From assembly GCF_000196115.1 (NCBI RefSeq), contig NC_005027.1:6506001-6570000 (forward strand): a DNA stretch of 64,000 nt, in the 5' to 3' direction. Source of the DNA: Rhodopirellula baltica SH 1 (GTDB lineage: Bacteria > Planctomycetota > Planctomycetia > Pirellulales > Pirellulaceae). The notes below the pieces were generated by a model. The model did not search any database. It saw only the letters and a list, made by a program, of their open reading frames with translations, and was not told the origin of the DNA. Below are positions 25,105 through 47,175 of the stretch, piece after piece. Both the position numbers and the translations under genes were made by a program. Position 1 is the first letter of the stretch, and the number at the start of each line of letters is the position of its first letter.

Positions 25105-25403
25105 GTAGGCCAGGTTCTACCTGGCGATGGTGCTTGGCCGGTGGAGGTTGCTCTCGCGAATGTGTTTGGATGACGCCTCGCTTTGTTCCAAAGCATCGGC
25201 GCGGTCGCCATGTGGAACATGGCCTACGGGGATTGTGAACCGAATTCTGGCGAATCCGGCTACGAGTCGGGGTGGCTGCTGTAGGCCAGGTTGTACCTGG
25301 CGATGGTGCTTGGCCGGTGAATATTGCTCTCGCGAAAGCGATTTGGTGACGCCTCGCTTTGTTCCAAAGCATCGGCGCAGATGCCATGTGGAACATGGCC
25401 TAC
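25105..25403. repeat. Tandem structured repeats, array 1 (two 123-bp cores)
   Basis: Cores lie at 25105-25227 and 25281-25403, each exactly 123 bp, with a 53-bp conserved spacer. Each core starts GTAGGCCA and ends TGGCCTAC (terminal inverted repeat). It has a hairpin just inside each end: GCCAGGT-loop-ACCTGGC on the left and GCCATGT-GGA-ACATGGC on the right. The spacer includes GAATTCTGGCGAATCCGGCT, and partial spacer copies flank the array at 25068 and 25418. It fills the space between the converging DUF1501 and pepA genes. The same repeat occurs five more times at 46320. Confidence 0.92.
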
Positions 25404-25470
25404 GGGATCGTGAACCGAATTCTGGCGAATCCGGCTGCGGGGATTATCCGAACGACTTGGAGACCTTTGG

Positions 25471-26976
25471 TTACGAAGCGTTTTCGATCCAGCGGACGAG
25501 GCTTCGTACCATGACGCCGGTGGCACCTGCGTCGCGATGAGGTTTGGGGGAGTCAACGAAGGCGGGGCCAGCGATGTCGATGTGAACCCATGGCACGTCG
25601 GCGACAAAGTTCTCCAGGAATTTCGCGGCGGTGATCGCGCCGCCCCAACGACCTTCGCCGACGTTCTTGATGTCAGCCACTTTGCTTTTGACTTTGTCGT
25701 CGTACAGCGAGAACATCGGCAATTGCCAAACGGGTTCGCACTCAGATTCCGCCGCACTTTGAACTGCGTCGCAGAGGGCTTGGTTGTTGGTCATCAATCC
25801 GGCGACGTCGATTCCGAGGGCCACCATGCAAGCACCGGTGAGCGTGGCCAAGTCGACGATCGCTTGAGGCTTTTGTTGCACGGCGACGTCCAGGGTGTCG
25901 GCCAACACGACGCGGCCTTCGGCGTCGGTGTTGAGAATCTCGATTGTTTTACCGCTGCGGGTTTCGATCACGTCGCCCAGTTTGTAGCTGTCGCCGCTGA
26001 CCATGTTTTCAGCCAGCCCACACAATCCGATGACGTTGCGTGGCACCTTCAGTTTCGCCAGTGCGTTCATCACGCCAACAACAGTTGCCGCGCCAGCCAT
26101 GTCGCATTTCATGTCGACCATGCCATCGCTGGGTTTGAGTGACAAACCGCCGGAGTCGAACGTGACGCCTTTGCCGACGACGACAAGCGGGGCTTCGTCG
26201 CCACCGCCATCGTGACGCAGCATCACCAAACGCGGTGGGCTGGTTGATGCTCGACCGACGGCCAAGATCGCTCGGCAGTTTTCAGCTTCCAGTTTTTTCT
26301 CGTCCCAGACTTCACACGTGAGTCCGCAGTCGCTGGCGATTTTCTCAGCGTATTGAGCGAAGCCGGTTGGGTTCATGATCGACGGTGGCTCGTTGACCAG
26401 ACGCCGAGTGTGATTGATCGATTGGCCGAGCTTTTCACCACGTGAAACGGATTCGGCTGAGTAACCAACAAACGCGATTGCTTCGGGAACCGAGATGGAA
26501 GGTTCACGTTGATACAGATGTTGGCCTTCGCATCCGGAGACCGCACCGGCGACGACGGCATCGTGGTTTTCGGTGGCGACGCCATCGCCCAACGCGAAAG
26601 TGATCTGCTGGCGTGGCTTGCTGGCCAAGCTGCGAACCACCGCGGCACCGAGTTCAATCGCAGACCCGCGAGTTCGTTTGTCGCTTGCGCCCAACCCCGC
26701 AAGCACGATCCAAGGTGTTTGAGCATTGCCAGTGGCGAAGCTGGTCAGCTCACCAGGTTTGCCGGTCACTTCGCCGGAACTGCACGCGTTCTTTACCGTC
26801 GCGGCGAGCGATTCTGGCAACGAAGAAACGGCGATGCAGTTGGCGGTCGTTTTGCCGTCGGAAGATTCCCCTGAATCAGCAGACGGTTCAACTCCGAGGA
26901 CCAACACACCTGCTTTCTCGAGGTCAAGTTTGGTTTCGGAGGTCAGCGTCATCATGGGAAAAGGCAAAGGTTGCAT
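25471..26976 (-). CDS. pepA: Leucyl aminopeptidase (M17 family)
   Basis: PepA removes N-terminal residues from peptides in the cytoplasm with two metal ions. The 501 residues match family length. The C-terminal catalytic domain has GKGVTFDSGGLSLKPSDGM, MKCDMAGAATVVGVM and the signature NTDAEGRVVLAD, carrying the metal-binding Lys, Asp and Glu residues and the catalytic Lys and Arg. The N-terminal half is the divergent M17 regulatory domain. PepA homologues may also bind DNA in other bacteria, which is not testable here. The start is uncertain: 26976 (MQPLPFP) or 26952 (MTLTSET). It converges on the repeat array at 25105. Confidence 0.94.
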   Translation of the reverse strand: MQPLPFPMMTLTSETKLDLEKAGVLVLGVEPSADSGESSDGKTTANCIAVSSLPESLAATVKNACSSGEVTGKPGELTSFATGNAQTPWIVLAGLGASDKRTRGSAIELGAAVVRSLASKPRQQITFALGDGVATENHDAVVAGAVSGCEGQHLYQREPSISVPEAIAFVGYSAESVSRGEKLGQSINHTRRLVNEPPSIMNPTGFAQYAEKIASDCGLTCEVWDEKKLEAENCRAILAVGRASTSPPRLVMLRHDGGGDEAPLVVVGKGVTFDSGGLSLKPSDGMVDMKCDMAGAATVVGVMNALAKLKVPRNVIGLCGLAENMVSGDSYKLGDVIETRSGKTIEILNTDAEGRVVLADTLDVAVQQKPQAIVDLATLTGACMVALGIDVAGLMTNNQALCDAVQSAAESECEPVWQLPMFSLYDDKVKSKVADIKNVGEGRWGGAITAAKFLENFVADVPWVHIDIAGPAFVDSPKPHRDAGATGVMVRSLVRWIENAS

Positions 26977-27048
26977 TCTTAAATCCGGTGGCAATTGAAA
27001 GGGTCGAAACTTGCGAGTGGAAAAGCGCTGTGTTACCGAGGTGAAGGT

Positions 27049-28506
27049 CTACGATTGAGCTGCTGCTTCGTCTTCATCTTTTTTGTATTGGTCGAGTCGA
27101 CGGTAAAGAGTTCGGGCACCGATTTGCAGGATCTTTGCCGCCTCTTCTCGATTGTTGCCGGTCAGTTTCAGCGTCTCTTCGATCGCCCAGCGTTCGATTT
27201 CAGCGAGTGGTCTGCCGACGAAACTCATGTTGCCTTCGATCAAAGCGGGGCCTTGAGATTCTTCGCCCTCTTGAGGTGTCTCGTCGATCAGTTCCGGCGG
27301 CAAGTCGTCTTCGTCGAGTGACCCATCGGTGTCCAGCACCACCATGGTTTCGACGAAGTTTCGAAGCTGGCGGATGTTGCCGGGCCAGTCGTACGCGAAG
27401 AATTTCTTGGTCACTGCGGGAGTGAAATGGGCAGACGATTTGCCATGTCGCCGCAAGAACATTTTTCGGAAATGGTCCATGAGAGCGATCACATCATCGC
27501 GTCGCTCTCGGAGTGGCGGCAACTCGATCGTCACGACTTTCAAACGGAAGTAGAGATCGTTTCGGAATGTTCCTGCATCGATCATTTCTTCGAGTGGTCG
27601 GTTGGTCGCTGAGATCAAACGAACGTTGACCTTGATCGACTTGTTCCCACCGACGCGAGTGATCTGGCTTTCCTCCAGCACTCGCAACAATTTGATCTGG
27701 GTGCTCATCGGCATGTCGCCGACTTCGTCCAGGAACAGCGTCCCGCCATTGGCGTATTCAAACGCACCTTCCCGGTCGGAGACCGCGTCGGTGAACGAAC
27801 CTTTGACATGGCCGAACAGTTCGCTCTCGACCAAGTTCTCAGAAACAGCTCGCGTGTTGAGTGCAACGATGCGTTTGTTTTTGCGGGGGCTGTTTTGATG
27901 GATGGCCTGCGCCACCATTTCTTTTCCGGTTCCGGATTCACCGGTGATAAGCACCGTCGCGTCGGTGGCGGCAATGCGTCGCAAACGGTCGATGACCGTT
28001 TGCATCTTTTTGCTGGTGTAGATGATGCCTTCGAAGCCAAAACGCTCGTCGAGCCGCTGCATCAACTCGGTGTTTGTCCGTCGGAGTTCGACGTTCTCGG
28101 CCGCCTTCTCGACGATGGCTCGCAAGCGACTGGGGGTGATCGGTTTCTCGAGAAAATTGAACGCGCCCTGCTGCATCGCTTCGACAGCGATCGGCACCGT
28201 CGCGTGCCCGGTCACCATGACGACTTCGCATTCGGGCAATCGTTCTTTTGCCAGAGCCAGGATTTTCATTCCGTCGACATCGTTCATCACCATGTCGGTG
28301 ATGATGATGTCGAACGTTTCTCGCTGGATCAGTGCGGCGGCGTCGGGGCCGCTGGTCGCGACCTCGCAAACGTAGCCAACCTTTTCCAGGCTCTCCGTCA
28401 TCGCCCGCGCGTGGGCAGCCTCATTGTCGACCACCAGCAGACGGTACTTCGAACGATCCGGCGGTTCGGCGGTGGAATCGGGGGCGGCAGTGAGATCGGA
28501 AGTCAT
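27049..28506 (-). CDS. NtrC-family sigma-54-dependent response regulator
   Basis: The 485 residues show three domains. The receiver (about 20-135) has LLVVDNEA, phosphoacceptor Asp71 in IIITDMVM and the conserved Lys121 in EKPIT. The AAA+ domain (about 160-400) has Walker A GESGTGKE (189-196), Walker B in GGTLFLDEVGDMP and the arginine-rich RLKVVTIELPPLRERRDD. The Fis-type helix-turn-helix is at the C-terminus (REEAAKILQIGARTLYRRL). The loop that contacts sigma-54, normally GAFTGA, reads GSFTDA (236-241). The protein should activate sigma-54 promoters when phosphorylated. No sensor kinase gene is nearby. The start is the ATG at 28506. Confidence 0.93.
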   Translation of the reverse strand: MTSDLTAAPDSTAEPPDRSKYRLLVVDNEAAHARAMTESLEKVGYVCEVATSGPDAAALIQRETFDIIITDMVMNDVDGMKILALAKERLPECEVVMVTGHATVPIAVEAMQQGAFNFLEKPITPSRLRAIVEKAAENVELRRTNTELMQRLDERFGFEGIIYTSKKMQTVIDRLRRIAATDATVLITGESGTGKEMVAQAIHQNSPRKNKRIVALNTRAVSENLVESELFGHVKGSFTDAVSDREGAFEYANGGTLFLDEVGDMPMSTQIKLLRVLEESQITRVGGNKSIKVNVRLISATNRPLEEMIDAGTFRNDLYFRLKVVTIELPPLRERRDDVIALMDHFRKMFLRRHGKSSAHFTPAVTKKFFAYDWPGNIRQLRNFVETMVVLDTDGSLDEDDLPPELIDETPQEGEESQGPALIEGNMSFVGRPLAEIERWAIEETLKLTGNNREEAAKILQIGARTLYRRLDQYKKDEDEAAAQS

Positions 28507-28680
28507 TCAAATCAGACGGATGACGAGAAGGGCTGGCGAAAATCGACCCCATTTCGTGGTCGTGAGCCCTTGATTCTAAGCCAGTCCAGGTTCCTGGGAA
28601 CCATGTCTCCGAAACCGGTTCTCAGGGCCCTCGGAAGTTGTCGGGGGAAGCGGTGCAGGTGACGCCGGCTCGCACGCAAT

Positions 28681-28883
28681 CAGTCGCGGAGCGACGGAAT
28701 CTGGCAGCCTTGGGTTTCAACCCAAGGTTGGGTTGAATCTCGATGGTGAGCAAGTCGCGGAGCGACGACAGCCGGGGACATGATGATCCCACCTGTCGCC
28801 ACTCCGCGGCTTTTCATTGGACGCACCTGCCGGGAACCTCGGGTTGAAACCCGAGGCTGACAAATGCCACCGCTCCGCGGTTG
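28681..28883 (+). repeat. Palindromic mosaic element B, copy 1
   Basis: The order of blocks is CAGTCGCGGAGCGACG; hairpin CCTTGGGTT-TC-AACCCAAGG (28708-28727); AAGTCGCGGAGCGACG with CAGCCGG; CCACCTGTCGCCACTCCGCG; hairpin CCTCGGGTT-GA-AACCCGAGG (28837-28856); GCTGACAAAT; CACCGCTCCGCGGTTG. The same blocks in the same order occur in reverse orientation at 42399-42604, while the linkers differ. It lies between the regulator gene start and the SHD1 gene stop. The rest of the 28507-28939 interval holds no recognised gene and presumably the regulator promoter. Confidence 0.85.
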
Positions 28884-28939
28884 GGTAGACCGAGGCAGCA
28901 CGCTAGGTGAGGGGCAACCCGGCGTCCTGAGGCTGATCG

Positions 28940-30673
28940 CTATTCCGTTACGACTTGGAATGGATTGGCGGCGGCTTCGGATTCCTTTTGGAATCGTTCC
29001 GCCAGGTCGGCGTCCTTCTTTGAGAGTGCTGTCACCGGGACTTCGATCGTTTTGTTGTCGGCGGACTTCAGGCGAAGCTTGCCATCCTTCACCGCCAGGA
29101 ACGATGCCTCGATTTTGAATTTCCCGGTTTTGTCCGTCCAGGTCCGGATGACATCCATTTCAGCTTGGGGATCTTCGTCGTCCATCTCATCCGGTTCATC
29201 GATCGCCACCTTGGGTTTTGGAGCCACACGCCGAGTTCGCGGTGCGGGCCGCGTGTCGACAGGTTGCTGAACCGTATCGGGTGGGTAACGCAACATCGAT
29301 ACATTGACGCGTTCGACTCGACCATGACCACCGACGGACTGCACCGAGACTTCGTTGCGAGCATGGATTTCTTTGACTTCGACCGCTTCGTAGCCGCTGA
29401 ATCGTTCTCGTGATTTGGCCAGAATCTGACCGACAACCAAACGGCTGGCCGTTGTGACTGGCCCACCGGTCCGCTTCACCGTCCCAATCCCGCGGCTGTA
29501 GTCGCGACGATCCTCTGCCATCTGCTTGAGCGATTCGTCGTAGCGGGCCGCAGCCGAATAAAAGGAGGATTTCCGATTATCCTTGGACATCTCGGCTCGC
29601 TGCAGAAGTGCCTGCGCGAGTTCGGGATCTTGGCGTTGATTCCTCGAGTTGAGCTCCATCATCGCGCGATGAGCGATCGTGAAGGAAGATTCGGGACCGA
29701 GAGCCTTGATCCATTCTTTGCGTTCAGCATCGGTGAAGGGGCGTGTGCGTTTGAGTTCAGCCTCCTTTGCCGCAGCGATTTTGGCGTTGCGTTCCTGCTG
29801 AGTCTCGCGAACCAAAGAGATCGACACGGGAACTTTGATTTCCACGCCATCGTCGACTTGGAAGATCACTCGATTGATTTGCAGTTGTTCATAGAAGCCA
29901 TCGTCTAAGTTGAAGAACGCGATGCCTTCACCTTGCATCTTCAGTGGTGGGTCGGATTCGGGAGCGGACAACTCGTATTGATGGTCAATCTTCATCCGGT
30001 TTCGAACCGCTGGATGAGCAACGTACTTCCATTTCTCGGTTGCGATGGAAAGTTTTTTATTGTTCAGGCCCGCGTGGCTGGCAAACAAAGGCGTCATTCC
30101 AAAGGGGCTGCTGACCCGGGCGATGGTGGTTGTGTCAGATTCGTTCCAGGTCACTGCGACATCGGCACCATTGTCCGCCGCTCGTTGATTGACGGGGATC
30201 GCATTGGCCGGAGGGAGTGGAACGATGGCAAGTTGGCCGAGCGTGCCGAGCAGCAATCCCATCATCTCATCCCGCTGCGCGACCTCGACGCTTCCGAGCG
30301 GTGTGATTCCCAGCAACGCCCCTCGGCAAGACACCGATTCCAGCGTTGGCAAAGGCGAATCGTTGCTGCTGCGGAAGAAGGATGACGAGCGAGAGTACGT
30401 GCCTTCTAGATGGCCGGTCACGTTCAGCTGAATCAATTCCGGCGTGGCGGATTTGACTTGATAAGTCAACGTGCCAGGGTATTTGCCCGCGTCTTTACCG
30501 ATCCCGATCTGAATGTTGATCTTGTAGGTGACCGTTTCGCCAACCTTCGAGCTGAAACGAACCGGTTCAGCGGCTGAGGCAGAAGCCGAAACCAGCAACG
30601 AGCCGGGGACCGCCACGCCAAATAACAGCATGCCGACCAGGAAGGTCAACGAACCATTCAATCGATGAGTCAT
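28940..30673 (-). CDS. Exported protein with C-terminal SHD1 domain
   Basis: The 577-residue protein has a signal peptide (FLVGMLLFGVAVPGSLLVSASASA). The N-terminal 300 residues look beta-rich (GETVTYKINIQIGIG, GTLTYQVKSATPELIQLNVT), suggesting a lipoprotein-like or lipid-binding fold, but I cannot name the family. A helical, charged region follows around residues 300-390. The C-terminal 60 residues match the SLA1 homology domain 1 (SHD1): RTWTDKTGKFKIEASFLAVK and TIEVPVTALSKKDADLAERF. In yeast SHD1 binds NPF-type peptides; in planctomycetes it occurs in many exported proteins of unknown role. The start at 30673 fits the signal peptide. Confidence 0.78.
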   Translation of the reverse strand: MTHRLNGSLTFLVGMLLFGVAVPGSLLVSASASAAEPVRFSSKVGETVTYKINIQIGIGKDAGKYPGTLTYQVKSATPELIQLNVTGHLEGTYSRSSSFFRSSNDSPLPTLESVSCRGALLGITPLGSVEVAQRDEMMGLLLGTLGQLAIVPLPPANAIPVNQRAADNGADVAVTWNESDTTTIARVSSPFGMTPLFASHAGLNNKKLSIATEKWKYVAHPAVRNRMKIDHQYELSAPESDPPLKMQGEGIAFFNLDDGFYEQLQINRVIFQVDDGVEIKVPVSISLVRETQQERNAKIAAAKEAELKRTRPFTDAERKEWIKALGPESSFTIAHRAMMELNSRNQRQDPELAQALLQRAEMSKDNRKSSFYSAAARYDESLKQMAEDRRDYSRGIGTVKRTGGPVTTASRLVVGQILAKSRERFSGYEAVEVKEIHARNEVSVQSVGGHGRVERVNVSMLRYPPDTVQQPVDTRPAPRTRRVAPKPKVAIDEPDEMDDEDPQAEMDVIRTWTDKTGKFKIEASFLAVKDGKLRLKSADNKTIEVPVTALSKKDADLAERFQKESEAAANPFQVVTE

Positions 30674-30742
30674 GTCGTCGTCGCCTGATGAAATGGGATG
30701 GAGGACCCCCATGTTAATGACTCGACGCATCCTCTGTGAACG

Positions 30743-30770
30743 GAAACAGCCGCTCAAAGGCGGCTGTTTC
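30743..30770 (-). terminator. Strong hairpin after carB
   Basis: GAAACAGCCGC (30743-30753) pairs perfectly with GCGGCTGTTTC (30760-30770), an 11-bp stem with a 6-base loop. It lies 21 bp beyond the carB stop. On the minus strand the stem is not followed by a clear T-run, although its last bases are T-rich (CTGTTTCCGTTC). It most likely ends the carB transcript. Confidence 0.65.
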
Positions 30771-30790
30771 TTGAAACGTTCACAATGCAA

Positions 30791-34042
<3,252 letters not shown>

Positions 34043-34280
34043 GGAAACGATCCCAAAAGAGGGCGGAGGGGCTCGAATGGCTGACGATTTGGTCGAGAGC
34101 CCACCGGCTGTGGGGGCTCAGGTTCGACGACGCCTGCCGTGAAAATTTCGGGAAGGATAACACGGTTTGCCCTCGGCGCAGAGGACCGGGGATCGGATCA
34201 AAATCGATTCGCCGAGAACTCTTGGTAGGATCCACCTTGCAGCCCCAGATTGGCGGCAAATTCGTCGGTAGGACGAATGT

Positions 34281-35348
34281 TCACATCGCGATGATCATTT
34301 CCAGAAACTCGTGTTCCGTCATGATTCTCAGGGGGGCTCCTTCGGCTGCCAGCTGTCGAGCGGTCGCCTCTTTGACGCTCATCGTGCGACTTGCCTGAAC
34401 CGTTCGCGAATCGGGGTCACCGACGACGACCAAGTCCGTTTTTCGCGAAACGCTGGATTGGCACTTTCCTCCGCAACGAGATGTCAGCATTTCAGCTTCC
34501 TCCCGCTGCAGCTTTTGAAGCACCCCGGTGAAGACCACTTTGCGTCCCTCGAGCGGTCGAATGAAGTCGGCACGAATCATCAATCGCTGCAAATCCACGC
34601 CGCTGTCGCTGATCCCGCAGGGACGGGGCGGCTCGATGGCGAACGAGGCGGATCCGGCCGTCGAGTTCGAAATGGTGGAACTAGTCATCGTCGATCCAGC
34701 GATCGCGACTTCGGGAGCCCGTGACGGCGAGCGACGCGGGGAAGATTTTCGTCGGGTCGATGCACGCCTGGACGTTGGCCCTTTCTTTCCCCAAGCACCT
34801 GCACTGCCCCGAGACAAGGAAAGCTTCGATTCCAAAGTCTCCAGGCTGGTCGCCCCCGAGTCTTCCGCCGCGGCCAAAGCGATCTTGGCACAAGCGATCG
34901 AATCTTCCAGAGCATCGTGGTGGCGGAACCGAATGCCCAACCAATCCGACAGTGGTTTCAACCCAAAGCGAGGTTGCTGGGGCCAAGTCCGACGGGCGAT
35001 CGCTCGCGTGCAACTGTATTGCATGTCGGGAACAGGATGGTCGTGCGATTCCAAACAAGCCATCAACACGCCGAGGTCAAAGCTGGCGTTGTGAGCGATC
35101 AAGCAATCATCGCCGAGCGTGGATTGGATCTCCGGCCACAACTCGCCGAACTCGGGTTCCTCCCGCACCATCCCGGGAGTGATGCCGTGGATCTGAATGT
35201 TGGCGGGTGAAAACACAAACGGTCGCGGGCGAATCAGCCAGCACGCCGAATCAACGATCTCTCCGCCGCGAACGCGAACCGCCGCCAATTGACAGGCACT
35301 GTCTGAGCGACGCGTCGCCGTTTCAAAATCGATCGCGGTGAAATCCAT
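34281..35348 (-). CDS. 3'-5' exonuclease (DnaQ-like) fused to a BRCT domain
   Basis: The 355-residue protein has a DEDDh exonuclease domain at 1-170: ExoI DFTAIDFETA with catalytic Asp and Glu, ExoII LIAHNASFDLGVL, and ExoIII RFRHHDALEDSIACAKI with the His/Asp pair. A basic, Ser-rich linker (GKKGPTSRRASTRRKSSPRR) leads to a BRCT domain at about 265-355 (LEGRKVVFTGVLQKLQREEA, SVSRKTDLVVVGDPDSRT). This pairing resembles the epsilon-like exonucleases of DNA polymerase III and repair nucleases; it is not the main DnaQ with certainty. The function would be proofreading or repair of DNA in the cytoplasm. The start is the ATG at 35348, right at the first conserved strand. Confidence 0.9.
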   Translation of the reverse strand: MDFTAIDFETATRRSDSACQLAAVRVRGGEIVDSACWLIRPRPFVFSPANIQIHGITPGMVREEPEFGELWPEIQSTLGDDCLIAHNASFDLGVLMACLESHDHPVPDMQYSCTRAIARRTWPQQPRFGLKPLSDWLGIRFRHHDALEDSIACAKIALAAAEDSGATSLETLESKLSLSRGSAGAWGKKGPTSRRASTRRKSSPRRSPSRAPEVAIAGSTMTSSTISNSTAGSASFAIEPPRPCGISDSGVDLQRLMIRADFIRPLEGRKVVFTGVLQKLQREEAEMLTSRCGGKCQSSVSRKTDLVVVGDPDSRTVQASRTMSVKEATARQLAAEGAPLRIMTEHEFLEMIIAM

Positions 35349-35454: not shown

Positions 35455-35654
35455 TTCATCCCGGTAGGGATTTCAGATGGTAGCCGGGGGTTGCTGCGTA
35501 GCAGCGTACCCCTGGAAAACGAGCCCCAGAAAAACTCTCCATCCCGCCGTGGCCAAAGGCCACGGCGGGATGGAGAGTGGCGGCGTGGGGGCGTGTCCAT
35601 CGGTGGCGCTATCGCTTACCGACGGCTACCATCCGGCATCCCTACCGGGATGAA
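35455..35654. repeat. Nested palindromic element C with perfect 17-bp terminal inverted repeats
   Basis: The ends are TTCATCCCGGTAGGGAT (35455-35471) and ATCCCTACCGGGATGAA (35638-35654), exact inverted copies. Inside lies a second perfect pair, GATGGTAGCCG (35476) and CGGCTACCATC (35623). A smaller hairpin with GCTGC-GTA-GCAGC follows near 35488. The centre is a perfect 21-bp stem (35534-35554 with 35558-35578) and a 3-base AAA loop. The total length of 200 bp and the terminal repeats recall a MITE, but no target-site duplication was identified. It lies between the DUF1501 stop at 35757 and the exonuclease start at 35348. Confidence 0.85.
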
Positions 35655-37313: not shown

Positions 37314-39887
37314 TCATTCCCGCGTTCGAACACAATCCAAATTCAAGATGGAGTGAATCACCATAGTCCATGCGGCCAAACGAACCTGGTCGGGCGCGGA
37401 TGTCACGGACTGGACAACCGGATCCGTGCATCGTTGCACGAGTGCGGTGGCTTGGCCCGGTTGAGATTCATACAGCGATTGAAAGGTCTCGAGCGATCGC
37501 GACAACGATTCGAGAGCCGCATCGGTTGGCGGTCGCGAAGTGATGGTTTCGTAGGCAACGGCCAAACGTTTTTGATGGCCGCCGTCTTCGGCATTCAACG
37601 TTTCATCATCGAGCAATCGTTTGGCCAGCGTCGTCGATGCACTGAAGAACTGAGGTTCATTCATCAGCATGAGGGCCTGCAGCGGCGTGTTGGTTCGTTC
37701 GCGTCTGGCAATGCAACTGTCGCGGTTGGGTGCGTCAAAGATGGTCATCTGCGGCGGTGGCAAACCGCGTTTCCAGAACGTGTAGACGCTTCGACGAACG
37801 GCTTTCTCACCCGAGTCGGGGACGTAGCTGTTGGGGTACGAAGTTGGCATCGCAACGATCTTCCACAATCCTTCCGGTTGTGGTGGTTTGACACTTTTTC
37901 CGTACATCGTCGGGCTGAGCAGACCGCAAACGGAGAGCACTTGGTCGCGAATCACTTCTGCGTCGAGACGATAGCGAGAACCGCGAGCGAGCAATCGGTT
38001 CTGCGGGTCGGCGACAAAGGATTCTGGAGGGGCGATCGATGACTGCTGATAAGTTTCTGTGTTGACGATCGAACGCATCAAACCCTGCACATCCCAGCCA
38101 GAATCGATGAATTCGATGGCAAGGTGATCGAGCAATTGGGGATGCGACGGCAGTTGGCCTTGGGCGCCAAAGTCTTCGGATGTTTTGACCAGTCCGACGC
38201 CAAACAGTTGCTGCCAGAAACGATTGACAGCGACGCGGGCGGTCAGCGGGTTGGTTGGATCCACCATCCACTGCGCCAAATCCATGCGTGTTTTCGGCGT
38301 GTCGGGATCGTCGGCACCTGGTAGCGGTGGTAGGAACGAAGGCGTGTCGCGAGTGACGACTTCACCGGGGGCATCGTAGGCACCGCGGATCAGGATGTGA
38401 GCGGGACGAATTTCAGCTCGCTCTTTCATCACGAGCGTCGCGGGGACGTTCACTAGAACGCTGTCGCGTTCTTGGTTCAGCTTCGCGATCGCGGCTTGAA
38501 CCTGTTGCAGTTTTTGCTTGCGCTGTTCTGGTGATGTTTGGGGCTCGGCCCTCCCCTCGCTTCGCTCGACCCTCTCAGAGGGAGGGTGAAGTTTGGAAGC
38601 GTCGGGAGCTTGTTTGTCTGGTTCCGGTTTGGGTTGCAGGTCTTTCGCTTCCGTTTGCAGGCGAGCGATCTCGGCGCTGAGGCGTGTCAGCGTTTGGGAT
38701 TGTTCTTCCGTCGGGAATTCGATGTATGGCGGTTGCAGCCCGCGTTGAAAATCGGTGCCGCGACGGCCTCCGGTTTCGGGACCACCGTCGAAGTTGTTGA
38801 AGAACGCGTACAGCGAATAGAAATCCTTCTGCGAGATCGGATCGTATTTGTGGTCGTGGCAAACAGCACACTGCAGGGTCAGACCCATGAACGCCGTGCC
38901 GACCGCAGATACTCGATCGACGACATTCTTGACGAAGCTCTCTTCGGGCAAGGCTGTCCCGCGATCGATGATCAGGTGCAACCGGTTGAACCCTGACGCG
39001 GTCAATTGATCGACGCTGGGATCGGGATGCAGATCGCCGGCGATTTGATCGACAATGAACTGGTCAAACGGCAGGTTCTCGTTGAATGCACGAATCACCC
39101 AATCGCGATAAGGTGTCATCTCCCGGTAGTGATCGTGATGCATCCCGTTGGTGTCAGCGAACCGGACGAGGTCCAACCAGTACCTCGCCATGTGCTCGCC
39201 AAACGCAGGTTTCGCGATGATGCGATCCACTAAGTCTTGATAAGCGGTTTCGGAATCGTCGTTCAGGAACGCATCGATCTCTTCGGCGGTCGGCGGCAAT
39301 CCGGTCAGGTCCAGTGACAGACGGCGGATCAATGTTCGTCGATCGGCTCGGGGACGCGGGGTGAGTCCTTTGGATTCCATCTTGGAACTCACAAAGCGAT
39401 CGATCGGGGCATCCCACTCATCGTGCACCAGATCGGGCAATGGCGGTTTGCTCGGCGAGACAAATGCCCAGTGCGTTTCATAGGGAGCACCTTGCTCGAT
39501 CCACTGTTTCAGAATCGTGATCTGCTCGGGCTTCAGTGGCTTGTGCATGTCCGGCGGCGGCATGATCGAATCGGGATCTTCCGATTCGATCCGGACCAGC
39601 ACCTCGTCCAGATCGGCTTCGCCCTCGATATCCAGCCGGAATCCCGCTGCATTGTTGTTTTCGTCGGGGCCGTGACAGGCGAAACAATGGTTCGAAAGAA
39701 TCGGCCGCACGTCTTCTTGGAAAGAGACCTCATCCGCGTTTGCCGGCAAGACCGAGGCGAGAAGGAGCGTGAGGACGCTGAAACCGAGCGAAATCGGACT
39801 CGCCGCGGCGGAAACCACGGGGGAAAAAGACACAGGCATTCGCGAGGCGGGGGTGGGTGAGGAGCGAATTTGGAGGGCAAGTTCCAT
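37314..39887 (-). CDS. PSCyt1-DUF1549-DUF1553 diheme cytochrome protein (copy 2)
   Basis: The 857-residue protein has a signal region ([20 protein letters not shown]), then PSCyt1 with heme motif CFACH in [23 protein letters not shown]1549 with a second heme motif CAVCH in [20 protein letters not shown], and DUF1553 ([38 protein letters not shown]). The ATG at 39887 has GGAGGT 8 bases upstream, which decides the start. Between DUF1549 and DUF1553, at about 38536-38585, the coding sequence contains a GC-rich repeat-like insertion encoding [15 protein letters not shown]. The domains suggest periplasmic electron transfer to an unknown substrate. It diverges from thrS. Confidence 0.92.
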
Positions 39888-40130
39888 TTTGGTCCACCTC
39901 CGGAGTCATCGCAACTGAATAGAGCTGTCTGCGTCGCGAAGTGCGGAGGAATGTCGCGACTTTGCTTTGTCGAGTCATGCCAGGGGTGGTTTTGTCGCCG
40001 AAAGGGCCGTGGAAACCCAAGGCGAACTCGAACTGAACTTCTGCTGTCCCCCCCTGAACCGCTATTCTTGGCAGTCGATTCGCGACTTCGTATCTCGCGA
40101 CCCATCCTTGTTCAGAAAGAAAATTGTCTG

Positions 40131-42362
40131 ATGTCCGCTGATTCCCCTTCGTCCCCCGCTTCTTCCCAGGCCGCCGAAGTTCAAGTCCGACTGCCGGACG
40201 GCTCGCTGAAAACCCAACCCGCTGACGCCACCGCGATGGATGTCGCGAAAGAGATCAGCGAAGGTCTTGCCCGCAGCGTCGTGGCCGCCGAAGTCGACGG
40301 CACCATTGTTGATTCATTCCGTCCTCTCGGCGAAATCGCTGACGATGAAAATGTGGTTCCGCTTCGTTTGCTGACCACGCGTGATGAATCGGCTCTCGAT
40401 GTGCTGCGTCACTCGGCCGCTCACGTGATGGCTCGCGCCATCATGCGAATCTACAAAGGCGTTTCGCTGGCGTTCGGTCCGACCACCTCGGGTGGTTTTT
40501 ATTACGATTTCGACATGCCAGAGAAAATCAGCGAAGACGATTTTCCAAAGATCGAAGCGGAAATCAAAAAGATCATCAAAGCCAAGGAACCGTTCGAACG
40601 TTTTGTGCTCGAACGTGACGAAGCCCGCAAACTTTGCGATGACCTCGATCAAGACTTGAAGGTTGAACACATCGAAACCGGTTTGGGCGATCAGGCCACG
40701 GTCAGCTTCTATCGTCAGGGCGAGTTCGTCGACCTTTGTCGCGGACCTCACATTCCTCACGCCGGCATGATCAAAGCGATCAAACTGCTGAGCGTTGCGG
40801 GCGCGTACTGGAAAGGCGACGCTTCGGGACGTCAGTTGCAACGCGTCTACGGAACCGCTTTCTTTGATAAGAAAGAGTTGGCCAGCTACCTCGAGCAGAT
40901 CGAAGAAGCCAAACGCCGTGACCACCGCGTGCTGGGCAAACAGCACGGTCTGTTCGCGATCAATCCTGAAGTCGGGCAAGGTTTGTGCTTGTGGTTGCCC
41001 AAGGGAGCTCGCGTTCGCGTCACGTTGGAAGACTTCTTGCGTCGCGAATTGCTTTCGCGTGGTTACGATCCGGTGTACAGCCCGCACATCGGTCGCGTGG
41101 AAATGTACGAAACCAGCGGCCACTTCCCTTACTACCGCGACAGCCAGTTTGCTCCGTTGTTCGGCAGCGAAGTCGGTGGATTGTTGGACGCGTGGAGCAC
41201 TCGGCTCGACAAAGATGATTTGTCCAAGGACGACGAAGACAAGTTGATCGCGGCGGCGGAAGTGTTTGGCGTCAAACTGCCCGATTACAAACCGTCGGCG
41301 TCCAACGACGCGAAAAAGGATGTGCTGCATCGCTGGCAATTGAATCACGAGCGTTATCTGCTCAAGCCAATGAACTGCCCTCACCACTGTCAAATCTTTG
41401 GTGCCCAGCCGCGATCGTATCGTCAGTTGCCGCTGCGGTTGTTTGAGTTCGGAACCGTTTACCGTCACGAGCAAACCGGCGAACTGAACGGGATGATGCG
41501 GGTGCGTGGTCTGACGCAAGACGACGCGCACATCTTCTGCACCGCCGATCAAGTCGAAGAAGAATTCCGTGCAACGATCGAGTTGACCAAGTTCGTGCTC
41601 GAGTCCGTTGGGCTGGATGATTACCGCGTGCAGTTGTCGCTGCGGGATCCGGACAGCAGCAAGTACGTCGGCAGCGAAGAGAACTGGGATCACGCCGAAG
41701 GTGCTCTGCGAGGTGTGCTGGAACAGTCCGGTTTGTCGTTCAACGAAGAGCCCGGTGAGGCAGCGTTCTACGGTCCCAAAGCGGACTTCATGGTTCGTGA
41801 CTGCATCGGTCGTTCGTGGCAGTTGGGAACGGTGCAGTTGGATTACAACCTGCCCGAACGCTTCAAGCTGGAATACAAAGGCAACGACAATGCGACTCAC
41901 CGCCCCGTGATGATCCACCGCGCACCGTTTGGTTCGCTGGAACGATTCACCGGGATGCTGATCGAGCATTTTGCTGGTGCGTTCCCGATGTGGTTGTCGC
42001 CCGAGCAGATTCGTGTGTTGCCGTTGTCGGACAAGTCCGTCGAATACGCGACCGCGGTGGCCAAGCAACTCGACGAAGCCGGGTTCAAAGTCACCGTCGA
42101 TGCATCCGATGGAAAGGTCCAAGCCAAGATTCGCAACGCCCAGATTGACTTGGTCAACTACATGGCCGTTGTGGGGCCAAAGGAAGCTGAGTCAGGACAG
42201 GTCGCGCTGCGTGACCGAATCGAAGGCGACCTCGGATCGATGCCGATCAAAGAAGCGATCGCGCGTCTGCAAAAAGAAGTCGAGACGCGTCAGGTCCGCC
42301 AAGCGGTCAAAGGCAGCACGGTGTCGATCGCCGAAACCGGCGGTGCCGCGACCGATTATTGA
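40131..42362 (+). CDS. thrS: Threonyl-tRNA synthetase
   Basis: ThrS charges tRNA-Thr. The 743 residues are about 100 more than E. coli ThrRS. TGS domain: [14 protein letters not shown]. Editing domain: HSAAH and CRGPH, with the zinc/editing His and Cys present. Catalytic core: [17 protein letters not shown], zinc Cys in KPMNCPHH, motif 2 (RHEQTGE), zinc His in TQDDAHIF, and [12 protein letters not shown] with the last zinc His. The anticodon domain starts near IRVLPLS. An extra stretch of about 57 residues (about 338-402) separates FPYYRD from YLLKPMNCP, and the usual PMNCPGH is PMNCPHH. The start is the ATG at 40131; no strong ribosome binding site precedes it. Confidence 0.96.
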
Positions 42363-42398
42363 TCGCGGGTTTTCCGTCGCCGGCGGTCTCCGCGAATG

Positions 42399-42604
42399 CA
42401 ACCGCGGAGCGGTGAAATTTGTCAGCCTCGGGTTTCAACCCGAGGTTTGGAGTGGCAGCACGAATGCCGGCAAGCCGCGGAGTGGCGACAGGTGGTTGCG
42501 AGGTGTTTCCGGCTGCCGTCGCTCCGTGACTTGGGTGGCGCGGGTGGCGTCAAAAAACCTTGGGTTGAAACCCAAGGCTATTGGCTGTCGTCGCTCCGCG
42601 ACTG
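42399..42604 (-). repeat. Palindromic mosaic element B, copy 2
   Basis: Read on the minus strand this is the same block order as at 28681: CAGTCGCGGAGCGACG, CCTTGGGTT hairpin (42558-42577), AAGTCACGGAGCGACG with CAGCCGG, CCACCTGTCGCCACTCCGCG, CCTCGGGTT hairpin (42426-42445), GCTGACAAAT and CACCGCTCCGCGGTTG. It fills the interval between the converging thrS and M20 peptidase genes. No coding sequence is seen in 42363-42698. Confidence 0.85.
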
Positions 42605-42698
42605 GTTCTGCCGGATTCGTTCGTGCCTGATCTGATCGCGACCGATCGATCCGCGACTGGTTGTGCGGGGGACTGAACCGCGAATGCCACGTCCCACC

Positions 42699-44105
42699 TC
42701 ACGCGGATGCGATGGCTTGCCAGAGCGAGGCGGAGGCTTGGATGCCTCGGTGGAAATCTTCGAGTGAGAACTTTTCGTTGGGGCTGTGAGCGGCATCGTC
42801 GTTTTGGCCCCAACCGAGAAGCAAGCAATCGCAATCCAGGACTTCTTGGAACCGAGCCAGGATTGGGATCGAGCCGCCTTCGCGAATCATCACGGGTGGT
42901 GTTCCGAACGCTTTCTCGATCGCGACGCTGGCTGCCTTGGCGTAGCGGCTGTTGGCATCCGCCAACATCGCACCGGCACCGTGATCGGGTTTTAGCGTCC
43001 AGCGGATACCCGGCGGGCAATGACGCTCGAGGTGAGATTCGATCAACCCGGTCAGACGTTTCGGGTCTTGGTTGGGCACCAATCGGAAGCTGAACTTCGC
43101 GGACGCTTTGGCAGGCAAAACCGTTTTGACGCCTTCGCCTTGATGTCCGGAGGTCAAACCGTTGATGTCGAGCGAGGGACGCGCCCAGCGTCGTTCATCG
43201 GTTGTGTAACCCGCTTCGCCGTGCAGTTCGGACGCACCGACGCTGCTCGCGAATTCGGCGTCGTCGGCACCGAGTTTCTTCCAAGCCTCGCGTTCAATGT
43301 CGGTAATCGGGGCGACATCGTCATACAGGCCCTCGATTGCGATTTTCCCGTTCGCGTCTTTCATGCTGGCTAGCAACTGACACAGAGCCATGGCGGGGTT
43401 GGCGACCGCACCACCGAAGCTGCCGCTGTGCAGGTCGTGGCTCGGTCCGTCGACGAACAATTCGTACGTTGCAATGCCTCGCAGGCCGCACGTCACGGCG
43501 GGCCGACCCGGTGCGTACTGGCTGCTGTCGCTGACCACGACCACGTCGCAGGCCAACTTTTCAGCGAGCTCGGGCAACCAATCGTCCAGGTTTTGGCTGC
43601 CGACTTCCTCTTCGCCCTCGATCAAAAATTTGATTTGCAGCGGCAAGGGTTGTCCGCTGGCGAGCCAATCGCAAACGCTGTGAATGTGCGTCAGGACTTG
43701 GCCTTTGTCGTCCGTTGCACCGCGGGCAAAGACCTTGCCGTCGCGGACAACGGGTTCGAACGGTGGGCTGGTCCAAAGATCCAGCGGCTCAGGTGGCTGG
43801 ACGTCATAGTGCCCGTAAACCAGGGCCACGGGGGCACCGGGGACTGGCGGGGTGGAGGCAACCAGCAGCGGGAATCCGTTGGTGGAGATGGATTCGGTTT
43901 GCAGGCCGGCCGCGTTCATCTTTTCAAGCAACCAAGTGGCGGCCTGGTGAACGTCGTCGCGGCGGGTCGAATCGCTGCTGATGCTTGGGATTTTCAACCA
44001 CTCAATCAATTCGGCTTCGTGACGCTGTTTGCCGTCGTCCAATCGCGACTGAACTTCGGCGGGCAACTGAGACGCGGATGAGGAAGATTGTTCGGGTTGG
44101 GACAT
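42699..44105 (-). CDS. M20-family dipeptidase (ArgE/DapE/carboxypeptidase G2-like)
   Basis: The 468-residue protein shows the M20 two-domain plan. Metal ligands are in LVYGHYDVQPPEPLDLW (His, Asp), FLIEGEEEVGSQNLDDW (catalytic Glu and metal Glu) and VVVSDSSQYAPGRPAVTCG (Asp). A late metal His/Glu lies near IREGGSIPILARF. The long dimerisation domain sits between (about 210-330) and includes SGSFGGAVANPAMALCQLL. These are cytoplasmic zinc peptidases acting on dipeptides or C-terminal residues. The start is taken as the ATG at 44105; a TTG precedes it directly. It is divergent from clpS. Confidence 0.92.
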   Translation of the reverse strand: MSQPEQSSSSASQLPAEVQSRLDDGKQRHEAELIEWLKIPSISSDSTRRDDVHQAATWLLEKMNAAGLQTESISTNGFPLLVASTPPVPGAPVALVYGHYDVQPPEPLDLWTSPPFEPVVRDGKVFARGATDDKGQVLTHIHSVCDWLASGQPLPLQIKFLIEGEEEVGSQNLDDWLPELAEKLACDVVVVSDSSQYAPGRPAVTCGLRGIATYELFVDGPSHDLHSGSFGGAVANPAMALCQLLASMKDANGKIAIEGLYDDVAPITDIEREAWKKLGADDAEFASSVGASELHGEAGYTTDERRWARPSLDINGLTSGHQGEGVKTVLPAKASAKFSFRLVPNQDPKRLTGLIESHLERHCPPGIRWTLKPDHGAGAMLADANSRYAKAASVAIEKAFGTPPVMIREGGSIPILARFQEVLDCDCLLLGWGQNDDAAHSPNEKFSLEDFHRGIQASASLWQAIASA

Positions 44106-44287
44106 CAAATTGCATTGCGAAAGAGAATCGAGCAGCGTGCCGTCGAATGCGGAAAAATCCGTATTTGAGGACTAACAGGTCCATCTGGACGTCTTTACAA
44201 TAGCACTTCACGAACCAAAACAGGACCACCAAGCGGCAGGATGAGACGCCGCTGTTGCCCCAAATTTCACCAGGAGTTGTTGGAAGC

Positions 44288-44638
44288 ATGTCCGATCATT
44301 CCGCCGCCGTTGCCGAGCCCGATGTGGTCACGGAAGAAGAACAACGCAGCGATCGTAAACCGAAACGACAACCGCCCTACCATGTCATTTTGTGGGACGA
44401 TACCGACCACAGCTATGACTACGTGATTTCGATGATGAAGCGTTTGTTCCGCATGCCCATCGAAAAAGGCTATCAGGTCGCGAAAGAGGTCGACAAAAGC
44501 GGCCGCGCGATTTGCATGACCACAACATTGGAACTGGCGGAACTCAAACGCGATCAAATTCATGCGTTCGGCAAAGACGAACGACTGGACCGTTGCAAAG
44601 GCAGCATGTCTGCCACCATTGAACCTGCTCGCGGCTGA
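44288..44638 (+). CDS. clpS: ClpS-type adaptor for the Clp protease
   Basis: ClpS delivers N-degron substrates to ClpA or ClpC for degradation. The 116 residues begin with a charged, flexible tail of about 35 residues and then the ClpS fold: PPYHVILWDDTDHSYDYVIS, MMKRLFRMPIEKGYQVAKEV and GRAICMTTTLELAELKRDQI. The D-D-x-x-H-S/T-YDYV region forms the N-degron pocket; here DDTDHSYDYV keeps its Asp and His. The start at ATG 44288 follows an AGGAG at about 11 bases. It heads a plus-strand group with mtaB 33 bp downstream. Confidence 0.93.
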   Translation: MSDHSAAVAEPDVVTEEEQRSDRKPKRQPPYHVILWDDTDHSYDYVISMMKRLFRMPIEKGYQVAKEVDKSGRAICMTTTLELAELKRDQIHAFGKDERLDRCKGSMSATIEPARG

Positions 44639-44671
44639 GCGGGCCCGAGGCTGAACGAGCATTCTTTTCTG

Positions 44672-45958
44672 ATGACGGCGAAACTTCGAACCCGCACACT
44701 GGGCTGCAAAGTCAACCAGTACGAAACCGAACTGGTGCGGCAGGGCCTGCAAACGATCGGGTACGAAGACGCCAGCGATGGCGAATCGGCTGACTTGTGC
44801 ATCGTCAACACGTGCACGGTCACCGAAACCGGTGACGCGAAAAGTCGGCAGGTTGTCCGGCGTCTGAATCGCGAAAATCCAGACGCCCGGATCGTGGTGA
44901 TGGGTTGCTACGCCACGCGAGCTCCTGAGGAAGTCAGTGCCCTGCCAGGCGTTGTCGAAGTTCTGACCGACAAGCGAGAACTCGGCGATTTGATGGGCCG
45001 CTTTGGCGTCATCGATGTGCCCACCGGTTTGTCCGGGTTCGCAGGCCGCAAACGGGCGTATGTCAAAGTCCAAGATGGTTGCTTGCTTCGTTGCAGTTAC
45101 TGCATCATCCCGATGGTGCGTCCCAAACTGCATTCACGGCCCAGCCAAGAAATCGTTGACGAGGTCACTCGCCTGGTCGACGCCGGGCACCGCGAAGTCA
45201 TCCTGACCGGCATCCATTTGGGCCACTACGGAGTCGACTGGAACCGCAACAAACCTCGCGAGGAATGGGTGCGGTTGGCTCACTTGGTCAAGGATCTGTG
45301 TCAGATCCCCGGCCAGTTTCGAATTCGAATGAGCAGCATTGAGGCGACCGAAGTCACTCGGGAACTGATTGGCGTGATGGCCGAGTTCCCTGAGAAGGTC
45401 GTCCCGCACCTGCACCTGTGCTTGCAATCAGGAAGCGATTCGGTTCTGCGTCGTATGCGTCGACGCTGGGGCACGAAGATGTTTCTCGATCGCTGCCGTC
45501 TGCTTCGTGAATCATTGGACCGACCAGCGATCACGACCGACATCATTGCCGGATTCCCGGGCGAGACCGAGGAGGAATTCGAGCAAACGTTGCGGACCTG
45601 CCGCGAAGCTGGATTTTCAAAGATTCACGCGTTCCCCTATTCTGCTCGTCGAGGCACGCCGGCTGCCGAACGTGACGACCAACTCGACAAAGGGTTGATC
45701 TCCGAACGAGTCGATCGGTTGGGTGAGGTCGAAGCTGAGCTACGGCAACAGTACTACAAAACGTTGGTCGGTTCCAATTTGGAATTGCTGGTTGAAGAGG
45801 TGACACCTGACGGGCGTTTGCAGGGAACCACATGTCGTTACGCGTTGGGATCGATCGAGCGTCCTGAAAACGCGAGCGAAGCGGATGCTCTTCGTGAAAA
45901 CGATCTGATCACGGCACGTGTGGTCAGCGTTCAAGACGATCGATTGGAATTGGCGTGA
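44672..45958 (+). CDS. mtaB: tRNA t6A37 methylthiotransferase
   Basis: MtaB adds a methylthio group to t6A37 in tRNAs that read ANN codons, using two Fe-S clusters and SAM. The 428 residues show the MTTase N-domain with three cluster Cys residues (TLGCKVNQYE, IVNTCTVTETGD, VVMGCYATRAP). The radical SAM domain has the CxxxCxxC motif (GCLLRCSYCIIP) and the TGIHLGHYG strand, and the TRAM domain is at the C-terminus (LGSNLELLVEEVTPDG). The TLGCKVN start and length fit MtaB rather than MiaB. It overlaps the next gene by 4 bases. Confidence 0.95.
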   Translation: MTAKLRTRTLGCKVNQYETELVRQGLQTIGYEDASDGESADLCIVNTCTVTETGDAKSRQVVRRLNRENPDARIVVMGCYATRAPEEVSALPGVVEVLTDKRELGDLMGRFGVIDVPTGLSGFAGRKRAYVKVQDGCLLRCSYCIIPMVRPKLHSRPSQEIVDEVTRLVDAGHREVILTGIHLGHYGVDWNRNKPREEWVRLAHLVKDLCQIPGQFRIRMSSIEATEVTRELIGVMAEFPEKVVPHLHLCLQSGSDSVLRRMRRRWGTKMFLDRCRLLRESLDRPAITTDIIAGFPGETEEEFEQTLRTCREAGFSKIHAFPYSARRGTPAAERDDQLDKGLISERVDRLGEVEAELRQQYYKTLVGSNLELLVEEVTPDGRLQGTTCRYALGSIERPENASEADALRENDLITARVVSVQDDRLELA

Positions 45959-46308
45959 CCTCACCGCCTCGCAAAGACGACGTTGCCACCGTCGATGAAT
46001 TGAAAGCGATCGTGCATCAGTTTGTTGATGAACGGAATTGGCATGAGTTCCACCAGCCCAAAAATTTGGTGATGTCGCTGGCGATTGAAACCGCGGAGCT
46101 GATGGAGCATTTCCAGTGGCTCACGCCGGAAGAATCCGCCCGGGTGAAGGACGACGAGCAGAAGCTTCATGATGTCGGGGAAGAGGTTGCGGATTGCTTG
46201 GCATACCTGCTCGCGATCGCGAACAAATTGGACATTGATTTGTCGACCACATTGCGGGCCAAGATGATCCGCAACGCGATCAAATACCCGGTTCCGAAAG
46301 ACGAATAG
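45955..46308 (+). CDS. MazG-like nucleotide pyrophosphohydrolase
   Basis: The 117-residue protein is a single MazG-type domain of all-alpha fold. The N-terminal helix has ELKAIVHQFVDERNW. The ExxE motif is in LAIETAELMEHFQW, and the second metal motif is in EVADCLAYLLAIANKLDID. These enzymes hydrolyse nucleoside triphosphates, often dCTP or damaged dNTPs, to monophosphates. The GTG start at 45955 overlaps the mtaB stop (GTGA), so translation is probably coupled. The function with mtaB is not obvious. It ends 11 bp before the repeat array. Confidence 0.88.
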   Translation: MTSPPRKDDVATVDELKAIVHQFVDERNWHEFHQPKNLVMSLAIETAELMEHFQWLTPEESARVKDDEQKLHDVGEEVADCLAYLLAIANKLDIDLSTTLRAKMIRNAIKYPVPKDE

Positions 46309-46319
46309 ACGCGGCGATC

Positions 46320-47144
46320 GTAGGCCAGGTTCCACCTGGCGATGGCACTTGGCTGGTGAACGTTGCTCTCGCGAAAGCGTTTTGATGACGCCTCGCTTTG
46401 TTCCAAAGCATCGGCGTGGGCGCCATGTTGAACATGGCCTACGAGGATTGCGAACCGCATTCTGGCGAATTCGGCTACGAGTCGGGGTGGCTGCTGTAGG
46501 CCAGGTTGTACCTGGCGATGGTTGTTGGCCGGTGAAGGTTGCTCTCGCGAAAGCGTTTGGATGACGCCTCACTTTGTTCCAAAGCATCGGCGTGGATGCC
46601 ATGTGGAACATGGCCTACGTGGATTGCGAACCGAATTCTGGCGAATCCGGCTACGAGTCGGGGTGGCGGTTGTAGGCCAGGTTGTACCTGGCGATGGTGC
46701 TTGGCCGGTGAACGTTGCTCTCGCGAAAGCGTTTCGATGACGTCTCGCTTTGTTCCAAAGCATCGGCGTGGTCGCCATGTGGAACATGGCCTACAGGATT
46801 GTGAACCGAATTCTGGCGAATCCGGCTACGAGTCGGAGCGGCGGTTGTAGGCCAGGTTGTACCTGGCGATGGTTCCTTGCCGGTGGAGGTTGCTCTCGCG
46901 AGAGCGTTTGGATGACGCCTCGCTTTGTTCCAAAGCATCGGCGTGTGCGCCATGTGGAACATGGCCTACGGGAGCGTGAACCGAATTCTGGTGAATCCGG
47001 CTACGAGTTGGTGCGGCGATCGTAGGCCAGGTTGTACCTGGCGATGGTTGTTGGCCGGTGGAGGTTGCTCTTGCGAAAGCGATTGGATGACGCCTCGCTT
47101 TGTTCCAAAGCATCGGCGTGTGCGCCATGTGGAACATGGCCTAC
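46320..47144. repeat. Tandem structured repeats, array 2 (five 123-bp cores)
   Basis: Cores start at 46320, 46496, 46672, 46847 and 47022, each 123 bp, with spacers of 52-53 bp; the period is 175-176 bp. Every copy has GTAGGCC/GGCCTAC ends and both internal hairpins. In the first copy the loops differ (CCAGGT-TCC-ACCTGG and GCCATGT-TGA-ACATGGC) while the stems stay intact. The last spacer copy runs into the final codons of the ThiF-like gene, whose TAG stop lies within the conserved GGCTACGAG block. The array occupies the whole space between the converging MazG-like and ThiF-like genes. No protein is likely: the period is not a multiple of three. Confidence 0.93.
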
Positions 47145-47175
47145 GGGATTGTGAACCGAATTCTGGCGAATCCGG

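Follow-up and report, generated by a model that had tools for sequence, protein, structure and literature searches.

Tandem REPIN arrays of two interleaved GTAG REP families in Rhodopirellula baltica SH 1, where one partner transposase was not found and the other is interrupted

Repetitive extragenic palindromic (REP) sequences of the GTAG superfamily have, in general, a short stem, often with a loop of 2-3 nt, form head-head heterodimers and clusters, are located between convergent genes, and contribute GTAG stop codons (PMC3733652). The text of that 2013 report also describes several GTAG REP families coexisting in Rhodopirellula baltica, along with many tyrosine transposase genes that have flanking repeats (PMC3733652). 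REP doublets forming hairpins (REPINs) are non-autonomous and are thought to be copied by REP-associated tyrosine transposases (RAYTs), Y1/HUH single-strand nucleases related to the TnpA of IS200/IS605, and recognition of GTAG plus hairpin is established for Escherichia coli TnpA-REP (PMC8266576). Tandem clusters of REPINs with their flanks have been described in Pseudomonas fluorescens SBW25 (2011; PMC3116915). Here, we examine two arrays of a 123-bp repeat in a 64,000-nt stretch of the R. baltica SH 1 genome (contig NC_005027.1, positions 6,506,001 to 6,570,000), referred to below as the window. The best explanation of the whole, which we consider very probable, is that the arrays are REPINs of a GTAG REP family, here named REP A, that were tandemly amplified, and that both RAYT partners of the REPs in the arrays have been lost or broken in R. 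baltica.

The seven cores of the repeat start at 25105, 25281, 46320, 46496, 46672, 46847 and 47022, are all exactly 123 bp long, and are separated within the arrays by five spacers of 52 or 53 bp. This layout had been given in a preliminary description made from the window alone, and it is confirmed by the coordinates and by Tandem Repeats Finder, which places two arrays with periods of 176 (2.1 copies) and 175 (5.0 copies) at the core positions. All seven cores start with GTAGGCCA and end with TGGCCTAC. Both ends are one 21-nt motif in inverted orientation, REP A (GTAGGCCANGTYNNACNTGGC), consisting of GTAG, a 7-bp stem and a 3-nt loop; the left end reads GTAGGCCAGGTTGTACCTGGC in five of the seven copies, and the right end, on the opposite strand, reads GTAGGCCATGTTCCACATGGC in six. 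With an unpaired tag at the base of a short stem-loop, REP A is a REP of the GTAG superfamily, and inverted REPs with the GTAG tags outermost are the layout of a REPIN, which is what the 123-bp core is. Inverted ends, a trait also of classical miniature inverted-repeat transposable elements (MITEs) of DDE transposases, are present in the form of two GTAG hairpins. The two REP A ends enclose an 81-nt middle that contains a third hairpin. Each spacer carries a single REP of a second family, REP B (GTAGCCGGATTCGCCAGAATTCGG), on the minus strand 11-12 bp past the core, and the order and spacing of the unit (REP A, 81, inverted REP A, 11-12, inverted REP B, 17) are shared by the two sites, which lie 21 kb apart. 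As inverted REPs in ordered tandem clusters with their flanks, the arrays are tandem REPIN clusters, or bacterial interspersed mosaic elements (BIMEs), a likeness that the preliminary description had recognized. In array 1, a degenerate plus-strand REP B at 25025 pairs inversely with the REP B at 25064. The elements of the two arrays are as follows.

25025-25048, plus strand: degenerate REP B with 4 mismatches; the TAG stop of the DUF1501 gene lies within its GTAG
25064-25087, minus strand: REP B left of array 1; inverted B pair with 25025-25048
25105-25227, plus strand: REPIN A, array 1, copy 1 (REP A 25105-25125 on the plus strand, inverted REP A 25207-25227 on the minus strand)
25240-25263, minus strand: REP B in the array-1 spacer
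25281-25403, plus strand: REPIN A, array 1, copy 2
25415-25438, minus strand: REP B with 1 mismatch, right of array 1
46320-46442, plus strand: REPIN A, array 2, copy 1
46455-46478, minus strand: REP B with 2 mismatches, array-2 spacer
46496-46618, plus strand: REPIN A, array 2, copy 2
46631-46654, minus strand: REP B in array-2 spacer
46672-46794, plus strand: REPIN A, array 2, copy 3
46806-46829, minus strand: REP B in array-2 spacer
46847-46969, plus strand: REPIN A, array 2, copy 4
46981-47004, minus strand: REP B with 1 mismatch, array-2 spacer
47022-47144, plus strand: REPIN A, array 2, copy 5
47156-47179, minus strand: REP B closing array 2 on the right; the TAG stop of the ThiF-family gene lies within its GTAG

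REP A is not confined to the window. A blastn search with one core gave 81 matches in the R. baltica genome (G000; 7,145,576 bp in one contig). REP patterns were then searched with the reversed pattern as control, positions being those among the matches listed per genome. With at most one mismatch, REP A occurs 82 times forward and 75 times reverse in G000, or 157 times in all (control 0 and 0), and with at most three mismatches 108 and 115 times (control 28 and 27); a chance palindrome was rejected on these counts. At one mismatch it is found in six of the 13 genomes of the genus, G000 and five of the 12 others, with 19-157 matches each, and is absent from the remaining seven. Outside the genus it occurs once each in 3 of 47 genomes, where the control also occurs once each in 4. 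The pattern search of this genome and its relatives reveals REP A as a family of many dispersed copies, whose extragenic position was checked at the two window arrays. REP B is less numerous in G000 (22 and 29 matches at no more than one mismatch; control 0 and 0) and was found in seven of the 13 genus genomes, with a single copy in G010. A third family, REP C (GTAGCGGAACTCGCCAAGAGTTTCGG type), was read by eye at the flanks of a third RAYT with an open frame (locus L044).

Inverted REP A pairs with GTAG outside form 90 REPINs of 113-130 bp in 38 stretches of six genomes chosen for carrying REP A or its site; G000 alone accounts for 47 of them in 23 stretches, likewise of 113-130 bp, the search having covered lengths of 105-140 bp. 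Unpaired copies of REP A also occur (L252, L262). Other REP A clusters of G000 have different spacers and unit lengths, and the spacers of four of them (L252, L254, L270, L271) lack REP B. The invariant core length claimed at the outset therefore holds at the two loci, where most copies in relatives are 122-123 bp, but not family-wide; a length of 123 bp is a mark of the window subfamily. These genome-wide counts bear on the simplest alternative, in which a chance palindrome was duplicated in tandem with no mobile element involved. Such an account would fit the duplication of the spacers along with the cores and the likeness of copies within an array, yet the 157 dispersed copies, the compensated stem changes and the sister-species RAYT bracketed by the same REP (both described below) make it extremely improbable. 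It is refuted as the whole story by the dispersal of REP A and its linkage to a RAYT, while tandem duplication is still the best explanation for the growth of the arrays.

The hairpins of REP A are constrained. Among the 26 variable columns of the seven cores, only three fall within the 42 REP positions and 23 within the 81 inner positions (Fisher p = 0.005). All three (positions 13, 14 and 110) are loop positions, and the stems are invariant in seven of seven copies, in agreement with the initial observation that changes in the hairpins are restricted to loops. For the same reason, no covariation is visible within the seven window cores, and it appears only genome-wide and between species. 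A search pattern that left both bases of one stem pair unspecified gave 108 exact matches, of which 107 were paired (64 G-C, 43 T-A, with 1 A-C unpaired), the matches coming from 23 G000 stretches mostly fetched for REP A and including many tandem copies that are not independent. Allowing up to four substitutions with GTAG fixed gave 123 matches, in which every one of the seven stem positions has 118-121 Watson-Crick pairs, a set biased to the stem since the pattern includes it. Across eight hand-picked REP variants of the RAYT-A clade, all 56 cells are paired and four of the seven pairs show double-sided changes; in 500 shuffles the covariation score of 0.571 was reached by none, the number of double-sided pairs by 9 and the number of pair types by 21, although pairing is partly built into four of the variants (L228, two of L233, and L179), which came from a hairpin finder, and a longer L229 hairpin was omitted. 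Of the 90 REPIN middles, 73 contain an exact copy of the inner hairpin, GCTTTG-N(2-4)-CAAAGC (shuffled 0.000), and 88 contain it with up to three substitutions (shuffled 0.068). In the latter set, one pair is T-A in 82 cases, C-G in 4 and G-C in 1, and a second pair is C-G in 85 cases and T-A in 1; unpaired combinations are also seen, mainly at the innermost pair. One core folded as DNA is more stable than all of 200 shuffles (z = -3.25), while 6 of 200 equal it when folded as RNA (z = -2.39) and 5 of 200 equal core plus spacer folded as DNA (z = -2.23). The earlier view that the hairpins are constrained is upheld; its preference for structural selection over simple duplication is not supported, as the even spacing within the arrays is best explained by tandem duplication.

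Each array sits between convergent genes, as had been described: the DUF1501 and M17 aminopeptidase genes around array 1, and the MazG-like and ThiF-family genes around array 2. The TAG stop of the DUF1501 gene lies inside the GTAG of the REP B at 25025, and that of the ThiF-family gene inside the GTAG of the last REP B of array 2.

23595-25028, plus strand: flanking gene, DUF1501 (PF07394)
25471-26994, minus strand: flanking gene, cytosol aminopeptidase family M17 (PF00883)
45955-46308, plus strand: flanking gene, MazG-like (PF12643)
47176-48285, minus strand: flanking gene, ThiF family (PF00899)

Such a setting raises the possibility that selection maintains the array, whatever its origin, for a host function as an RNA or DNA control element between convergent genes, acting as a bidirectional terminator, a protector of mRNA 3' ends or a gyrase site. 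Roles of this kind have been proposed for REPs of other species (PMC3733652), and the position of both arrays at convergent gene ends, the two stop codons supplied by REP B, the conserved stems and the largely exact inner hairpin would all be in keeping with one. However, a convergent or downstream position is the usual distribution of REPs (PMC3733652), the arrays have no Rfam match, and species carry anywhere from 0 to 10 copies at these two sites; together, these points render a control element rather unlikely. An Rfam RNA family was rejected as an identity for the repeat, as none of the five window matches at gathering score falls on the arrays, and a clustered regularly interspaced short palindromic repeat (CRISPR) array was rejected because the spacers are near-identical.

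Counted at the sites orthologous to array 1 and array 2, REPIN A copies number 2 and 5 in G000, 10 and 1 in G002, 6 and 9-10 in G009 (the 6 being drawn from two contig ends that possibly overlap), 1 and 2 in G006, 1 and 1 in G004, and 2 and 0 in G011. Because copy number differs in this way between orthologous sites, the even spacing is most simply and best explained if a REPIN was duplicated in tandem together with its flank. Copies of the two sites in G009 are 93% alike, compared with 82-92% to other sets, so the arrays of one genome seem to exchange sequence. In G002, G009 and G004, a REPIN A accompanies a B or B-like element at both sites; the B-like elements next to the lone A copies in G004 and at the G006 array-1 site were read by eye, as was the decayed GTAG pair that remains at the G011 array-2 site, which lacks REP A. 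A further alternative is that the composite A+B unit moved as one piece, with one RAYT acting on mixed ends. While the identical order and spacing at two G000 sites 21 kb apart would be expected of such a unit, exchange between the arrays would account for that likeness, the other G000 clusters of REP A named above have other spacers without REP B, and the A-beside-B arrangement was already in place at both sites in G002, G009 and G004. A mobile composite is therefore considered very unlikely.

Sister genomes point to the enzyme with which REP A is associated. In four of the five other genomes carrying REP A (G006, G009, G004 and G011), REP A copies bracket a RAYT that scores above the NF047646 cut-off. 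This RAYT-A corresponds to L088 in G006 (R. europaea 6C), to L089 in G009, to L118 in G004, where it occupies a different site from the other three, and to L119/L123 in G011, where the gene is broken over two frames and its flanking REP A has two mismatches. The L088 protein scores 171.9 bits against NF047646 (cut-off 80) and aligns with E. coli TnpA-REP (PDB 4er8) at 2e-40 over two segments, which include the HxH and DY..NP regions. At E<=0.001, a RAYT-A protein search finds some match in nine of the 13 genus genomes, those in G001, G003 and G005 being weak (20-38 bits); G010 has a 55% identical relative (L178), and G007 has one that is 49% identical, contains two stops and is flanked by GTAGGGCCGGT-type hairpins. 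Eleven RAYT-A relatives were scanned for flanking hairpins (L178, L179, L228-L233, L235, L237 and L240; L234, L236, L238 and L239 were left out), and four of them (L179, L228, L229 and L233) have a repeated GTAG hairpin at their flanks. Compared with REP A, those of L233 and L179 carry compensated changes in the stem, and that of L228 (Stieleria tagensis) has the same stem with another loop. REP B has a partner as well, as the G002 RAYT-B (L099) has REP B on both sides; the interleaved REP A and REP B thus go with two different RAYTs.

In R. baltica itself, RAYT-A was not found and RAYT-B is disrupted. The RAYT-A protein search gave no match at E<=0.001 in G000 or in G002, both rich in REP A. 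G000 has eight Y1_Tnp matches, seven of them above the Pfam cut-off, and ten NF047646 matches, none above cut-off. None of 11 RAYT-like loci of G000 (L031, L039-L048) scanned for REP A at up to two mismatches has it at both flanks; only L043 has REP A at all, about 1 kb from its RAYT, and the L043 gene pairs with REP B. For two Y1 fragments outside that scan (1335684 and 1338515), the closest REP A in L085 lies at a distance of over 5 kb. At a site adjoining dnaB, where G006, G009 and G011 have RAYT-A, G000 has REPIN A on both sides of a 1.86-kb interval that contains a response-regulator/HD-domain gene (L170 2670-3962) and no RAYT match; one REP A is left at this site in G002 and none in G004. 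RAYT-B is interrupted in G000, with the 191-aa G002 protein matching L079 in residues 1-24 and 21-191 and an element with an rve integrase domain lying between, which is called IS3-like from a reading of its two open reading frames. Two other RAYT-like genes of G000 are flanked by hairpin families of their own, L041 (C1:5210350) by GTAGCTGACCGAGGCCTCTCGGTCAGC and L042 (C1:4637778) by a family tagged GTCG instead of GTAG (GTCGCCCATCGGCTCCGCCCGATGG).

Several observations weigh against an origin of the arrays from RAYT-A-mobilized REPINs whose transposase was later lost. Movement by a RAYT is putative here, as no transposition was observed, and the sole presence/absence case, the G011 array-2 site, has flanks that are 72% identical, so that its junction is not clean. 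The RNA fold of one core merges both ends into a single structure rather than two separate hairpins. Seven of the 11 scanned RAYT-A relatives, including L178 of G010, showed no repeated GTAG hairpin at both flanks, and G002 has another RAYT above cut-off (L090, 84.3 bits), with a similar one in G009 (L091), neither of which has REP A at its flanks. Finally, unlike what decay after loss would give, the REP A count of G000 (157) exceeds those of the genomes still carrying RAYT-A (78, 97 and 141, with 19 in the split-gene G011). This excess may reflect the draft state of the other four assemblies, a recent loss, or another RAYT acting on REP A.

The window holds other repeats and structured elements. 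Two elements of about 200 bp (28682-28882 and 42400-42603) are each an inverted pair of matches to the Rfam family RF01687 (Acido-Lenti-1), with one arm of each 96% complementary to an arm of the other; this small RNA family can accordingly occur as a REP-like paired DNA repeat, and no Acido-Lenti-1 match was found in 20 RAYT loci. An inverted-repeat element at 35455-35654 has 37-nt arms, 86% complementary and 126 nt apart, and a 37-bp tandem repeat of 2.8 copies with 91% matches lies at 18499-18602. RNase P RNA class A (48241-48645, minus strand) adjoins the ThiF-family gene to the right of array 2.

How, then, do the arrays compare with described systems? With the GTAG REPs treated in general in PMC3733652 they share the tag, short stem and loop size, clustering, convergent location and stop codons, and with its R. 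baltica families the species; RAYT loss in R. baltica and the two-family arrays were not met in the compared text of that paper. With the SBW25 clusters they share the inverted REP pair as unit, the occurrence of a REPIN cluster beside a matching RAYT, and arrays that mix two REP groups (GI and GIII in SBW25); they differ in sequence, in distance (with peaks at 71 and 110 bp in SBW25) and in size, the largest SBW25 cluster having four REPINs compared with up to 10 units in G002 (PMC3116915). Further differences from SBW25 are the conserved inner hairpin and the partner RAYT not found in R. baltica. E. coli BIMEs likewise consist of a REP and an inverted REP in tandem, with GTAG needed for recognition by TnpA-REP, a homolog of RAYT-A; their REPs are 29-37 nt long with a bulged stem and go with one RAYT, in contrast to the two families and two RAYTs interleaved here (PMC8266576). 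The preliminary description knew of no family with this form and named membership of a common, already described family as a refuting outcome. In kind, the unit does belong to such families, since both GTAG REPs (PMC3733652) and tandem REPIN clusters (PMC3116915) had been described, and what is notable is two REP families without both partner transposases in one genome. No earlier description of interleaved A+B arrays, of the RAYT-A/REP A pairing or of the loss of both partners was found in the parts seen of the literature on R. baltica REPs and RAYTs, PMC3733652 being compared by its text rather than by the R. baltica consensus sequences of its Figure 1. Rhodopirellula is not named in PMC2817692 or PMC6006769, and PMC6749651 mentions R. 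baltica a single time, in a table that counts satellites.

Taken together, a plausible history is that a REPIN A inserted beside an older pair of B REPs at converging gene ends before most A-carrying species split. Slippage or unequal recombination would then have multiplied the A+B unit and its flank in place into arrays of 1-10 units, and exchange may have made the two arrays 21 kb apart alike. In present-day R. baltica, neither REP family would be movable by its own RAYT, and the arrays would be remnants that act, at most, as passive hairpins at gene ends. An alternative possibility, distinctly unlikely in our estimate, is that after the loss of both RAYTs the interleaved families kept their stems, with arrays perhaps still growing, through a host role at convergent gene ends; if true, the REPINs of R. 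baltica have become independent of RAYTs. The persistence of REPIN populations is an open question that has been modelled (PMC8049555). The genomes carrying REP A form a natural series in which RAYT-A is uninterrupted (G004, G006 and G009), split (G011) or not found (G000 and G002), with arrays of 0-10 units, and this series lets the decay of REPINs after transposase loss, or its lack, be measured. RAYT-A itself represents a RAYT clade outside the Proteobacteria with some compensated changes in its REP stems.

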